A stretch of DNA of 20,677 nt from positions 1 through 20,677 of IMG/VR virus record IMGVR_UViG_3300021373_002552. One strand, written 5' to 3'. The notes under the pieces are model-generated. The model was not told the origin of the DNA. It saw only the letters and a list, made by a program, of their open reading frames with translations, and searched no databases. The position numbers and the translations under genes were made by a program. Below, piece by piece: positions 3,561 through 16,949 of this stretch (position 1 is its first letter; the number at the start of each line of letters is the position of its first letter). Source of the DNA: a virus.

Positions 3561-3583
3561 ATAAAAATAATTTATTACTTTTG
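3561..3583 (+). promoter_or_regulatory. Putative promoter before the portal gene
   Basis: TACTTTTG at 3576-3583 matches the Bacteroidetes -7 consensus TAnnTTTG. It is preceded directly by ATAAAAATAATTTAT (3561-3575), 13 of 15 bases identical to the block before the terS and protease -7 boxes. No clear TTTG is seen at -33. The portal start codon lies 23 bases downstream. Confidence 0.5.
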
Positions 3584-3606: not shown

Positions 3607-5034
3607 ATGGCATTAGGAATTAGAAACCCTTTTTATTTTACAAGAAACAGAACAGGGGTTACAGAAGAAGATTTACAAAGAGCAGTTTCTAACGCATTTA
3701 ATCAAGCTTTTTTATGGGGTTCATACGGAACAGAAGCGCTAGACGATGACCAAAACACAAAAAGATATATTGATTTAGCTTATAATATTAATCCAGATGT
3801 TTATTCTGTGATAAACCAGATATCAAGTAAATTCAATTCAGTCCCTTATTACATAAATAGAATTGATAATCAAAAAAGCTATAAAAAGTTAAAGTCGCTT
3901 AACAACGCAACTAAATTTAACTATTCAATACCTCAGTTGTTTAAATCGATTTCATTTCAAAGTGAAAGTTTTAAGGAAGATGCGCTTCCAATGCCATTAG
4001 AAAATCCAAATCCTTTTCAAACATGGAGTGAGTTTTTTAAATTAAGCGATACATTTCTACAAACTAACGGCACTGTTTACTGGTACTTTGAAAAGCCTTT
4101 GCTAAGAGAAAACGCAGATCCGACAGCTATGTATGTTCTTCCTTCTCATTTAATGGAAATAGTGTTAAAGCCTAATTCTGAAATTATTGGAAACGAAAAC
4201 CCCGTAGATTATTACATGTTAAAAGAAGGATATCAATATGTTAAGTTTCCTGAAGAACAAGTAATCACAATAAAATATCCAAACCCTAATTATAGTCAAA
4301 ACGGAGCCAATTTATACGGAATGTCTCCGTTAAGAGCATGCTGGAAAAACATTATGGCTACAAATAAAGGATTGGATTTAGCGGTTAATAATTTAAAAAG
4401 TGGGGGTGCTTTTGGTTTAATACACGCAAAAGACAACCAAACGCCTTTAACGGAAGACCAAGGTAAATCTATAAAGGAGCGTTTAAAGGAAATGGATGCT
4501 AGTACTGAGGATTTAGGGCGTATTTCTGGAGTTAGCGCGGCAATAGGATTTACTAGAATATCATTAACAACAGACGAGTTGAAGCCGTTTGATTATTTCA
4601 GCTACAACCTTAAAATGGTTTGTAATGTGCTGGGATGGGATGATAAGCTTTTAAACAGCGATAAAGCATTAACAGAAAACAATTTAGAAATTGCACAGAA
4701 AAGAGTAGTTTCAAATAAAATAGTATCGGACATAAAGTTATTTGAAGAAGCTTTTAATAATAAGGTTTTACCGATGTTTAGCGGTTATGAAAACGCTGTT
4801 ATTTATTGGAATCCTTCAGAGCTTCCAGAAATGCAGCAGGACTATGAAACAATGGTTAATTGGGTTTCTAAAGCTGTGGACGTTGGTTTAATAACCAGAA
4901 ATCAAGGATTAATGGCAATGAATATTCCTTTAAATGATGACCCGAATATGGATGTTATTACCGTAAAAGACGATGTGATGACATTAGAGGAGGCTATTTT
5001 ACCAAGCGATGAAATAAGGATAAGACAAAACTAA
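3607..5034 (+). CDS. Portal protein (HK97-type)
   Basis: Forms the dodecameric ring at one vertex of the head through which DNA enters and leaves and to which terminase and connectors bind. The 475-residue length, the N-terminal INPDVYSVINQISSKFNSVP segment (about residues 61-80) and the segment LYGMSPLRACWKNI (about 233-246), followed by a helix-rich stem and the GLITRNQGLMAMN segment near the C-terminus, match HK97-type portal proteins. It follows the large terminase and precedes the minor head protein, the standard order. Its last four bases overlap the end of a gene on the opposite strand. Confidence 0.9.
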   Translation: MALGIRNPFYFTRNRTGVTEEDLQRAVSNAFNQAFLWGSYGTEALDDDQNTKRYIDLAYNINPDVYSVINQISSKFNSVPYYINRIDNQKSYKKLKSLNNATKFNYSIPQLFKSISFQSESFKEDALPMPLENPNPFQTWSEFFKLSDTFLQTNGTVYWYFEKPLLRENADPTAMYVLPSHLMEIVLKPNSEIIGNENPVDYYMLKEGYQYVKFPEEQVITIKYPNPNYSQNGANLYGMSPLRACWKNIMATNKGLDLAVNNLKSGGAFGLIHAKDNQTPLTEDQGKSIKERLKEMDASTEDLGRISGVSAAIGFTRISLTTDELKPFDYFSYNLKMVCNVLGWDDKLLNSDKALTENNLEIAQKRVVSNKIVSDIKLFEEAFNNKVLPMFSGYENAVIYWNPSELPEMQQDYETMVNWVSKAVDVGLITRNQGLMAMNIPLNDDPNMDVITVKDDVMTLEEAILPSDEIRIRQN

Positions 5035-5204
5035 TTAAAAGGAATGTTATTTAAAAAATTTATTGATTCTTCTCTAGGAATTGAATTTAACCAATCATCA
5101 TTGGTACATTCTTTAGATTCTTTTAATTCATATAAAACGGTATTTTTTTCATCAACATTAAAAGACGCTATTTTTTTGTTATTTACACTAACAGTTATTT
5201 TCAT
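5031..5204 (-). CDS. Leftward 57-residue hypothetical protein within the head operon
   Basis: On the minus strand an ATG at 5204 opens a 57-codon frame that ends in TAG at 5031-5033, overlapping the portal stop by four bases tail to tail. The product begins MKITVSVNNKKIASFNVDEK, which suggests a beta-hairpin, followed by a charged helix and a WLNSIPREES segment. It has no signal or membrane segment. A perfect -7 box (TATCTTTG read leftward) lies 16 bases upstream of the start, and the gene fills almost all of the 208-base gap between the portal and minor head genes. Opposite orientation plus its own promoter is typical of morons, genes expressed apart from the phage late operon. The family is not recognised. 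An antisense effect on portal mRNA is also possible. Confidence 0.72.
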   Translation of the reverse strand: MKITVSVNNKKIASFNVDEKNTVLYELKESKECTNDDWLNSIPREESINFLNNIPFN

Positions 5205-5220
5205 GAAAAATTATTTTTAA

Positions 5221-5228
5221 CAAAGATA
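5221..5228 (-). promoter_or_regulatory. -7 promoter box of the leftward gene
   Basis: Read leftward the sequence is TATCTTTG, an exact match to TAnnTTTG. The start codon of the leftward gene follows after 16 bases. A TTG lies further upstream (5255-5257 on the plus strand as CAA), but its spacing of 26 bases is too long for a standard -33 element, so only the -7 box is supported. Confidence 0.5.
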
Positions 5229-5242
5229 GCAATAAAACATAA

Positions 5243-6046
5243 ATGACAGAAGAACAATATAGAAGACGTTGGTTAAGGCAGCATAATAGTTATGAAAGAA
5301 CAGCGTATTCAATTTTTTCGCGTTCTTTTAGAGAAACGGCTTTAAGAATACCTTTTAATTTCATCAATGAAAACAATTACGAGCAAATAATTAATAACGC
5401 TATAACAACAACAGAAATAACAAATGCTTATTACGAAGTTTATAATGAAATAGGACAGATACATGGAACTAGAACAGGAAACAGCATAAACAGGCAACTA
5501 AAGGATTTTATAGAGTCTATATTTTTAAATCAGTTTCAAAGAACATTATTGACATGGTTGTTAAACAATGCTGGAACTAGAATTACAACTGTTAGTCAAA
5601 CTTATGCAGATTATATTATACAGGAAATTGCGAGGGGTTTAGCTGGAGAAGAAAGTATAAGAGATATTGTTTCTAACATTCAAAGAAGATTAAACAATCC
5701 CAGATCAGGGTGGTACAGATGGCAATTATTAAGAATAGCAAGAACAGAAACAACGGCGGCCGCAAATCACGGAGCAACCGTAGCGACTCAAATAAGCGGG
5801 GTTGCAACTGATAAAGTTTGGATCAGTGCCGACGATAGCAGGGTAAGAAGACCACCGAAAAGCATATTTAATCACGCGGCAATGAATGGAGTTAAAATAG
5901 ATCAAAACGAAAAGTTTAATGTAAACGGTGATTTAATTGATTTTCCAGGAGACCCAAAAGGAGAGGCTGGAAATATTATTAATTGCAGATGTGCAAGTGC
6001 AGTTGTCGTTAGAAGGGATAACGAAGGAAATATAATTAGGATATAA
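5243..6046 (+). CDS. Minor head protein, phage Mu F-like head morphogenesis family
   Basis: A head assembly protein present in few copies, thought to act with the portal in building the prohead or to be ejected with DNA. The conserved Mu F-type C-terminal half is clear: RIARTET (residues 164-170), KVWISADDSRVR (191-202), H211 in FNHAAMNG, the FPGDPKGEAGN segment (234-244) and the paired cysteines of NCRC (C248, C250). The N-terminal half (1-150) is helical and variable, as usual. Length of 267 residues is near the short end of the family. It starts 38 bases after the leftward gene's own start, so the two genes diverge from the same small region. No plus-strand promoter is evident, so read-through from the portal promoter is likely. 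Confidence 0.88.
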   Translation: MTEEQYRRRWLRQHNSYERTAYSIFSRSFRETALRIPFNFINENNYEQIINNAITTTEITNAYYEVYNEIGQIHGTRTGNSINRQLKDFIESIFLNQFQRTLLTWLLNNAGTRITTVSQTYADYIIQEIARGLAGEESIRDIVSNIQRRLNNPRSGWYRWQLLRIARTETTAAANHGATVATQISGVATDKVWISADDSRVRRPPKSIFNHAAMNGVKIDQNEKFNVNGDLIDFPGDPKGEAGNIINCRCASAVVVRRDNEGNIIRI

Positions 6047-6093: not shown

Positions 6094-8013
6094 ATGGCAT
6101 TTAGAATAGAAACAGTAGGTGATTATGCGTTTCAAGTAGTTGACACATTGAGCCCCACACCTCCTTTAATGTACTTACCGCGTCAGGGGACATGGTACGA
6201 AGAACAATCCTTGCAGTCGGGATTTGTAAAATTTTATGGAACCTCTGGAACTAATGAAGATAATATAAAGTTATACAGTAGGTTTGAAAGTGATTTTAAG
6301 GGATTTCCTTTAGCTGAATGTGTAGATGATTCAGACACTCCTTTTACAGATGTAACTTTTAGAGCATGGGTAGGAGCTAATTTAGGGGGTTTTAATACGG
6401 GTGGGTCGACACCCTCACCAACGCCATCATTAGAAAATAGAGTTGTTGTAACTCAGAGTAACTACCAAACAACACTTTCTAATATTGATTCTACTAAAGA
6501 ATATTTTATAGATGGTGTTGTAGATGTTGCTAGCTTTAACATAACACCTCCTTCTGATCCCAACGGGATGCTTATCGTTGGGTATGATTTTGATACTTCA
6601 AAAATAATATCATCGAAAGATAATTTTACACTTATTCAGTCGTCACCTATTGTAGGCGGTGATTTGGTTTTGTTAGGAATGACGCTTTCACAATTTGATA
6701 AAACTTACTTAGAAGTTTCTGGATTGTACGGGCAAATAAATTCTTTAGGGAATGATTTTACTAATGACGATCCTGGTAATACCGATTATAAAGTTTTTTC
6801 CTATGATGATACAGGCGTAAGCGGTAATTATTTCGTTGTTATTAATTCTAATATAGGTAACTTTTGGGTTGTGATAGAAACTCCTGCAAATCCTTCAACT
6901 TATGTAAACGGAACTAACTTATCCCCAATAACAAACACTGAAAGCGTTTCTTTTACTTCAGAAACCCAAGAAGGTAAAAATGTTCCTGATTCAACAGATT
7001 CTAAAGTTAGTTATTCAGGTGGTTCTGGAGGTTCTGGAAATATTAAAATCAGAGATTTAGCAATCGAGATAAGTGGAAGCAACTCCGAGGTATATGATTT
7101 AACCCCAATAGATAACTTTAGAGCAATTGAAGTTAACAGGGTAAACTATAATAACTGTACTTCGTTAGGTGAAATAAACGGATATAGACAAGGATTCGAA
7201 CAGGGTTCTGGTAGGTTTGGAGGAACTCCTACATTAACTTTTTCGGGAAATTGGGGTGGTGGATATGTTTATACCGATACTATTGTTAGAATTTTAGACT
7301 CTGGAATGACAGAGCCTTTATTTAGAGAGGGTACAAACTTTGTGATGAATAGCAGATTCAGAAGTAATGCTAATATAGATCTGCCTTCTTTTGCTTCTTT
7401 TTTAGATTTTAACGGCACAAACTTTCCTAATACAAACACCCTGCAACTAAACGGCTGTACAATAACGAGAAATGGGGTTTTCAACTCCGAAGACTCAAAC
7501 ATAACACCAAACACAAGCGAAGGAGATGTAATTTCCGACTGGAACAGTAACACAGGAATAAGAAACACTATAAGATGTGGCGCGTTGAATGTAGATACTC
7601 AAGTTCCAACGGTATTAGTACAAAACATTTGGAATGATGTTAACGCAGTTTGGGGTTCTTCAGAATTACAACACATGGATAGCCCCACAAATGGAGAATT
7701 AAGGTTTTTAGATCAAACAGAAAGAGATTTTGAGTTAAAAGGACAGATAATAGTCTCTGGAGGGGCTGGAGATGATTTAGAATTTAGAATAGCTATAAGT
7801 AGAAACGACGGGGTAACTTTTGATGAGTTTGGTAGAGTTTTTCAAAGAAATGTTAATTTTCAGTTCTTTGGAGAGGATAGGGCGGATTTAACAATTATTC
7901 AACCATTAAAACTAAACTTAAATGACAGGGTAAAGCTTCAAGTTAGAAACATTACAGATTCAATAAATATAACCGCTTTGCAGGATAGTTATTTTTTAAT
8001 GGAGCAGAGGTAG
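6094..8013 (+). CDS. Large beta-rich structural protein, candidate head spike or fibre
   Basis: A 639-residue protein in the head module between the minor head protein and the protease. Residues 1-100 form an N-terminal domain, probably the virion anchor. A linker rich in Gly, Ser, Thr and Pro follows (about 101-112, TGGSTPSPTPS). The middle (about 120-500) is rich in Asn, Gly, Ser and Thr with alternating hydrophobic residues, as in beta-helical fibres, and has a second flexible hinge (SGGSGGSGN, about 309-317). The last 130 residues form a compact beta-sandwich-like domain. There is no signal peptide, membrane segment or enzymatic motif that I can see. The layout (anchor, linker, beta-rich shaft, globular tip) suggests a surface spike. 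Its place among head genes hints at a capsid-borne fibre or decoration, though a displaced tail fibre is possible. Confidence 0.6.
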   Translation: MAFRIETVGDYAFQVVDTLSPTPPLMYLPRQGTWYEEQSLQSGFVKFYGTSGTNEDNIKLYSRFESDFKGFPLAECVDDSDTPFTDVTFRAWVGANLGGFNTGGSTPSPTPSLENRVVVTQSNYQTTLSNIDSTKEYFIDGVVDVASFNITPPSDPNGMLIVGYDFDTSKIISSKDNFTLIQSSPIVGGDLVLLGMTLSQFDKTYLEVSGLYGQINSLGNDFTNDDPGNTDYKVFSYDDTGVSGNYFVVINSNIGNFWVVIETPANPSTYVNGTNLSPITNTESVSFTSETQEGKNVPDSTDSKVSYSGGSGGSGNIKIRDLAIEISGSNSEVYDLTPIDNFRAIEVNRVNYNNCTSLGEINGYRQGFEQGSGRFGGTPTLTFSGNWGGGYVYTDTIVRILDSGMTEPLFREGTNFVMNSRFRSNANIDLPSFASFLDFNGTNFPNTNTLQLNGCTITRNGVFNSEDSNITPNTSEGDVISDWNSNTGIRNTIRCGALNVDTQVPTVLVQNIWNDVNAVWGSSELQHMDSPTNGELRFLDQTERDFELKGQIIVSGGAGDDLEFRIAISRNDGVTFDEFGRVFQRNVNFQFFGEDRADLTIIQPLKLNLNDRVKLQVRNITDSINITALQDSYFLMEQR

Positions 8014-8045: not shown

Positions 8046-8068
8046 ATAAATAAAATTTATTATATTTG
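8046..8068 (+). promoter_or_regulatory. Putative promoter for protease and capsid genes
   Basis: ATAAATAAAATTTAT (8046-8060) is identical to the block before the terS -7 box and runs straight into TATATTTG (8061-8068), an exact -7 match. The ATG follows only four bases later, so a transcript from this box would be leaderless or nearly so. Confidence 0.55.
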
Positions 8069-8072
8069 AAGT

Positions 8073-8744
8073 ATGGATAACCTATTACTTAAACAGCATT
8101 CGCAGGAAATTGAGTTAAAAGATTTAGATGAATCCAAAGGAATAGTGGTTGCTTATGCAAATGTTTATGACTTTGAAGATAGTGACGGAGACATTTCAGC
8201 AAAAGGAAGTTTTACGAAAACGGTAAGAGAAAACTCTAAGCGCATAAGAGTGTTAAAAGACCACAATCCTCGAATTACTTTAGGAGTTCCTTTAGAAATT
8301 GACGCTGGTGATTCTTACGGACTTCTTACAACGAGTCAGTTTAACATGTCTAAAGATGTATCGAAAGATATGTTTACAGATATTAAACTAATGGTTGAAA
8401 ATGATTTGAGTGCAGAATTATCCATAGGATATAATGTAGTTGCCAGAAGCAAATCAGACAAAAGAGTGATTAACGAATACAAGTTAATGGAATATTCGTT
8501 TTTGTCAAGCTGGGGCGCAAACAGCAAAAGCACCGTCCAAAGCATTAAAGGAATTAAAAACACTGCTCAAATTATTGAGCTTATTGAAAAATCATATAAT
8601 CTTGATTACTCAGATACAAGATTAAAACAAATAGAAGAACTATTAAAATCACTTACTAGAGCCGAGCCGTCAGTAGACACTCAGGAAAAAGAAGCCGATA
8701 TTTTACAGAATATAGTTCAATCATTAAATAATTTTAAATATTAA
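8073..8744 (+). CDS. Prohead protease (HK97 family, U35 type)
   Basis: Serine protease that is packed inside the prohead and trims the capsid protein's N-terminal domain before DNA packaging, then removes itself. The family's landmarks are present: the DSDGDISAKGSF segment (37-47), the catalytic histidine in LKDHNP (H64), the catalytic serine in AELSIGY (S117) and an acidic residue in LMEYSF (E140), giving the expected His-Ser-Glu set. At 223 residues it is a normal length, with a C-terminal helical tail. It stops five bases before the capsid gene, as usual for this pair. Confidence 0.93.
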   Translation: MDNLLLKQHSQEIELKDLDESKGIVVAYANVYDFEDSDGDISAKGSFTKTVRENSKRIRVLKDHNPRITLGVPLEIDAGDSYGLLTTSQFNMSKDVSKDMFTDIKLMVENDLSAELSIGYNVVARSKSDKRVINEYKLMEYSFLSSWGANSKSTVQSIKGIKNTAQIIELIEKSYNLDYSDTRLKQIEELLKSLTRAEPSVDTQEKEADILQNIVQSLNNFKY

Positions 8745-16439: not shown

Positions 16440-16478
16440 ATAAAATTTATGAATATATAATTTTACATAAAAAAAACT

Positions 16479-16486
16479 TATATTTG
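16479..16486 (+). promoter_or_regulatory. Putative -7 promoter box before the second tube-like gene
   Basis: TATATTTG matches the -7 consensus exactly. Only four bases separate it from the ATG at 16491, so a transcript starting here would be leaderless or nearly so, as at the protease gene. The 51-base gap before it is very AT-rich, including ATAAAATTTATGAATAT. No -33 TTTG is visible. Confidence 0.45.
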
Positions 16487-16490
16487 TTTT

Positions 16491-16949
16491 ATGGCAAATG
16501 ATTTTTACAAGGGTGACGAAGATATTCTATACATAAAAGTAAATGAAACCTATTACCCTGTAGCCTGTTTAGTTTCAAATGATTTTTCTGAAAACTCAGG
16601 CACAATTGAAACCACCACACGAGATAATTTAGGATGGAAAACATTTCAACCAACAAACCAAAGTTTTGAAGTGTCTTTTGAGGGAATTGAAACACAAGAA
16701 GACGTTATAAACGGGCTGGTTACTTACAAAGACTTACAGAACTTTAAGAAAACTCAAACCCTAATAGATTTTAGAATAGGAAGCGTAAAAATAATTCAAG
16801 GGCAAGGATATATCATAAATATATCTAAAAACTCTCCTGCTGGGGATTTGGTTTCGTTTAGCGGACTACTACAAGGGTTTGGAAGTTATGACAATTACGA
16901 TCCTAATTTGAATGACGTTTTCAATTATGATTTAAACTTTGATTTATAA
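16491..16949 (+). CDS. Second tail-tube-like protein
   Basis: 152 residues that show the same layout as the major tail tube protein at 11854-12297. An early DILYIKVNETYYPVACLVSN hairpin (about residues 10-29) corresponds to NVLFKVYDGAAYVPVVCLKN. It is followed by a middle strand with FEVSFEGIE and a late strand pair (QGQGYIINISKNSP and DLVSFSGLLQGFG) matching GSGYLSEVSTEASS and DAIVTFSATLMGDG. It lies between the tail-tip protein and the fibre gene and carries its own promoter box. A tube-like protein here may form the last ring of the tail, link the tip to the fibre, or serve as an alternative tube subunit. The family assignment is by visual comparison. Confidence 0.68.
   Translation: MANDFYKGDEDILYIKVNETYYPVACLVSNDFSENSGTIETTTRDNLGWKTFQPTNQSFEVSFEGIETQEDVINGLVTYKDLQNFKKTQTLIDFRIGSVKIIQGQGYIINISKNSPAGDLVSFSGLLQGFGSYDNYDPNLNDVFNYDLNFDL

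Follow-up and report, generated by a model that had tools for sequence, protein, structure and literature searches.

The junction between the portal and minor head genes of this phage probably carries a real, small, moron-like accessory gene, here called p57, which lies in a variable slot, reads against the head operon and is likely transcribed from a box of its own (Table 1). The window, that is, the whole stretch of DNA analyzed, is the entire IMG/VR record, a virus fragment of 20,677 bases with a G+C content of 33.6%. The closest annotated relatives are Cellulophaga phage phi10:1 (43% identity in the portal and 45% in the minor head protein) and Flavobacterium phage 11b (42% in the portal), and the phage is an uncultured relative of flavobacterial phages such as these two. 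An earlier note, made from the sequence of the window, had pointed out a minus-strand frame of 57 codons that fills the gap and overlaps the end of the portal gene (stop codon at 5032-5034) by four bases, with all remaining genes running rightward. Both descriptions hold; p57 is the sole minus-strand frame of at least 40 aa in the window that has a positive coding score.

Table 1 Features at and around the portal/minor head junction of the window.
Feature	Position	Strand	Details
TACTTTTG box upstream of portal	3576..3583	+	Likely start of the rightward unit running through the slot
Portal protein gene	3607..5034	+	Left border of the slot; PHROG 12 (1.2e-39), Pfam Phage_portal (6.2e-28)
p57, 57-aa leftward gene, MKITVSVNNKKIASFNVDEKNTVLYELKESKECTNDDWLNSIPREESINFLNNIPFN	5031..5204	-	ATG start, TAG stop; coding score and start context in the text
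Variable slot at the portal/minor head junction	5035..5242		208 nt, 21% G+C; junction lengths in relatives in the text
Forward 58-aa frame	5044..5220	+	Coding score -0.125, shadow-like; judged a shadow of p57
AAAAA, -14 to -10 relative to the p57 ATG	5214..5218	-	Fits the A-rich translation element of Bacteroidetes; part of the start-context profile
TATCTTTG box	5228-5221 (5221..5228)	-	Matches the flavobacterial -7 box TAHHTTTG; 16 nt before ATG; predicted leader of ~12 nt
Minor head / head morphogenesis gene	5243..6046	+	Right border of the slot; PHROG 2468 (1e-39), Phage_Mu_F (2e-7)

The frame has the character of a protein-coding gene. Scored per codon with the codons of the window's own rightward genes against the most similar wrong-frame model, p57 reached +0.10 per codon (+0.09 to +0.10 over the two models used), in a test that is less powerful for very AT-rich and hydrophobic frames. 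With the second codon model, built from long genes in 151 related loci of low G+C, none of 765 shadow frames (45-75 aa, lying inside long genes) matched the p57 score. A frame of at least 57 aa arose in just 182 of 20,000 dinucleotide shuffles of the slot stretch, and the p57 score was equalled by 2 of 183 such shuffle frames. The start context of p57 lies at the 90th percentile among 712 long-gene starts and includes a run of A residues; in F. johnsoniae, the known translation signal consists of A residues enriched at positions -14 to -11 (PMC6847099). Codon use and start context both resemble those of real genes and, given the positive score, the absence of any shadow frame scoring as high and the favorable start context, p57 is very probably a real gene.

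The same bases are also covered by a forward frame of 58 aa, on which the earlier note was silent. This frame could be the real gene, an ordinary co-directional insert perhaps with a C-terminal membrane segment, of which the leftward frame would be the shadow: the filled slots of relatives carry forward genes that mostly start ~15 nt or less past the portal stop, and this one starts at 9 nt. Membrane proteins, moreover, get low scores in the codon test, as illustrated by the 55-aa insert of locus L044 (-0.05). However, the score of the forward frame (about -0.13) is shadow-like, falling in the upper range of the shadows (45 of the 765 are equal or higher), and among the 30 forward inserts of relatives, 29 exceed -0.06. 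Purines occupy 46% of its first codon positions versus 68% in the window genes, its start context lies at the 53rd percentile of long-gene starts, and homolog searches with it found none. Since the minus-strand frame scores above all shadows, has the better start context and is also preceded by a box, we consider it unlikely that the forward frame is the gene.

The earlier note had raised the question of whether the gap is a variable site in related phages, and the answer is yes. Two alignment-based IMG/VR scans together with phage records provided 129 distinct usable junctions: 74 have a gap of at most 12 nt, 4 have one of 13-60 nt and 51 have one of more than 60 nt, with a maximum of 2.1 kb; in phi10:1, the portal and minor head genes even overlap by 20 bases. 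Because the junction is closed in 74 loci and filled in 51, we regard it as a variable cargo slot. The inserts are mainly single forward genes of 30-100 codons, some being larger, and most filled slots hold small genes unrelated to p57. Among the near relatives, the slot is empty in L009, L092, L093 and L096, carries unrelated forward genes in L008, L011, L097 and L098, and holds two-gene inserts of 2.1 kb in L091 and L095. A leftward coding-like frame occupies the slot in the window only, among the 129 loci, and every other filled slot seen carries forward genes, which counts against the accessory-gene reading. Inserts were AT-richer than their own locus in 37 of 42 cases in relatives, and low G+C is therefore a trait of the slot cargo generally rather than a peculiarity of p57.

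Two further observations concern the slot and its surroundings. First, the differing forward inserts at L003:6357-6599, L011:2804-2953 and L019:5340-5483 end in alike short tails (FTITGKDLAGVINNTIDRNGRLE, FESSKQDISGILTRTLDRNKGLG and FTISSKDLGEIYTKSRRFDELG), possibly a shared motif. Second, the 639-aa gene that follows the minor head gene (6094-8013) is, over its N-terminal ~106 residues, 42% alike to genes of L091 (238-984) and L095 (831-1589), and these counterparts are placed in the portal slot, before the minor head gene. Genes appear, from these sequence matches, to move between the portal slot and the site after the minor head gene.

The putative promoter of p57 was examined with respect to the flavobacterial -7 box, which in F. 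johnsoniae is TAHHTTTG and is accompanied by a poorly conserved -33 element (PMC6847099); TAnnTTTG is also given for F. psychrophilum (PMC9723704). The exact TATCTTTG octamer described in the earlier note indeed stands 16 bases ahead of the p57 start and is the single exact copy in the window. Since shuffled windows contain a mean of 1.54 copies, only its position carries weight; when the local sequence is shuffled, a stretch of 40-46 nt contains the octamer with a chance of ~0.003 and TAHHTTTG with a chance of ~0.04. A TTG (-33 element) at normal spacing to the box was looked for and is absent. Between the window genes, TAHHTTTG is found five times on the plus strand versus 1.0 expected (P=0.002), and once on the minus strand versus 1.16 expected. 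In relatives, 41 leftward coding-like genes lead a cassette, and 15 of these have the motif 3-40 nt upstream, versus 10 of 469 shadow frames, a comparison of sequences that supports the putative p57 box by a factor of ~17. Of the own promoter that had been claimed, the -7 box in its proper place and the recurrence of box-bearing leftward genes in relatives thus stand, while the missing -33 TTG and the local chance of ~0.04 make the promoter weaker than the earlier note claimed. Host RNA polymerase would most likely transcribe p57 from this box, so that p57 expression would not depend on rightward transcription of portal.

Such boxes were also counted upstream of the head genes of relatives. 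TAHHTTTG occurs within 60 nt upstream of the portal gene in 49 of 60 cases and of the prohead protease gene in 34 of 100, versus 1 of 87 for the minor head gene and 0 of 80 for the major capsid gene. On this basis, promoters of the host type are very probably in use in this phage group, and the slot would lie within a rightward unit starting at the portal gene. Elsewhere in the window, a distance of precisely 4 nt separates TAHHTTTG from the downstream start codon of the prohead protease gene (8061-8073, ATG at 8073) and from that of the gene starting at 16491 (16479-16491); this spacing places the predicted transcription start at the A of the start codon, which would give a leaderless mRNA. 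This 4-nt spacing is the commonest one in relatives (18 of 34 boxed protease loci and 10 of 49 boxed portal loci); in F. psychrophilum, leaderless mRNAs seemingly make up just ~5.5% (PMC9723704). The 11-mer ATAAAATTTAT is present in three exact plus-strand copies (1819-1829, 8050-8060 and 16440-16450). Every copy sits at or between the ends of genes, two are near promoter-like boxes, and AT-rich stretches similar to it are found upstream of the protease box in relatives.

A scan of simple hairpin-T sites revealed no terminator-like site next to p57 (4700-5600); the sole leftward one lies inside the portal gene (3912-3893) and is no more than expected at chance level. Without such a site beside p57, the predicted leftward transcript could continue into the portal gene as antisense RNA. 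One could hence read the slot as encoding a leftward RNA, mainly antisense to portal or a non-coding regulator, in which the frame is incidental, and the leftward box would suit this. In Salmonella prophage BTP1, the antisense RNA STnc6030, which like the predicted p57 transcript is antisense to phage genes, confers superinfection exclusion (PMC7067206). However, STnc6030 acts as RNA, in contrast to p57 with its coding character, no Rfam match above chance was obtained (the one match was far under the gathering score), and relatives with conserved portals are found without such a leftward unit in the slot; we consider a mainly RNA-based role improbable. A combined scenario, in which p57 would be made early from the host-type promoter as an anti-host or anti-defence protein while convergent or antisense transcription restrains portal until late, appears decidedly improbable. 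That the slot is non-functional AT-rich filler at an insert-tolerant junction, with both frames arising by chance, would fit the lack of homologs, the 21% G+C and an arrangement seen in no other locus, but is very improbable given how rarely shuffles yield a frame of at least 57 aa (182 of 20,000) or one with the p57 score (2 of 183), and given the snug fit, box and start context of p57.

With p57 taken as a protein-coding gene, its product would be a protein of 6.6 kDa. Searches against PHROGs, Pfam, NCBIfam, PADLOC, IMG/VR, phage and plasmid records and PDB sequences found no homolog, and the comparison with phage protein sets proposed in the earlier note accordingly gave no match. A relation to the MKKAxIYFNG inserts of L027, L030 and L038 was rejected (hhalign probability of 0.4%), and alignment with the leftward proteins of phi10:1 or with 11b gp17 showed no convincing relation. 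The protein is acidic (pI 4.9) and hydrophilic (GRAVY -0.65), with no evident membrane segment, and the surface- or membrane-borne form of superinfection exclusion, a role suggested in the earlier note, is therefore disfavored for so short a protein. A single-sequence AlphaFold model, of low confidence (pLDDT 60), has a strand hairpin with helices after it. A process of elimination, together with the analogy to accessory genes found in slots of this type, leads us tentatively to suggest that p57 may be a soluble acidic protein directed at a host or defence target.

The position, orientation and absence from relatives of p57 fit a moron-like accessory gene. Like phage morons and prophage accessory genes, p57 is an extra opposite-strand gene between conserved structural genes, AT-rich, absent from relatives and possibly equipped with its own promoter. 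Its insertion point separates genes that are adjacent in relatives, and the base composition of the gap deviates from that of the window. Unlike a typical moron, it has no adjoining terminator found in our scan and no sign of lysogeny, and the slot cargo of related phages is mostly forward. The moron claim thus stands for a real opposite-strand gene at a variable site and falls short for the terminator and for the prophage setting: the annotated genes of the fragment include no recognised integrase or repressor, and of two scans of bacterial genome contigs for prophage relatives, the one with the portal itself gave none and the one with the alignment gave just three distant portals and no close copy. 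Lysogeny of this phage is unsupported.

Several known systems resemble p57 in part. STMMW_20121 of prophage ST64B is antisense to lytic genes and has its own promoter (PMC7067206), an arrangement for which p57 is a candidate only. The phi10:1 genes gp64-gp67 are likewise small minus-strand genes in a rightward head module, but they lie after the minor head gene, are four in number and have no sequence relation found to p57. Flavobacterium phage 11b gp17 (80 aa) is a small orphan in the identical portal/minor head slot, but is on the forward strand and unrelated to p57. Leftward small genes are common elsewhere in the head modules of relatives. Multi-gene leftward cassettes are found after the minor head gene or deeper in the head module (L002:7204-8035, L105:4207-5769, L106:4813-5944, L134:3812-4527 and L028:6520-8484), and a coding-like frame facing leftward begins no more than 1.5 kb past the minor head gene in 19 of 112 loci, although several of these (e.g. 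L110-L119) resemble tail genes in differently arranged genomes.

p57 is an orphan in a well-populated phage group; its kind, optional phage cargo, is ordinary, and for this slot it is unusual in facing backwards. In the proposed mechanism, p57 would have entered the head operon in the opposing orientation, and its production would be independent of the rightward portal transcript. The slot is a concrete site in the head module where small genes of unknown role come and go between conserved morphogenesis genes, and slots of this kind offer a practical way of finding candidate genes for anti-defence or host takeover. Reversed and with its own box, p57 is predicted to be the slot member for which expression at a different time from the head genes is most likely.
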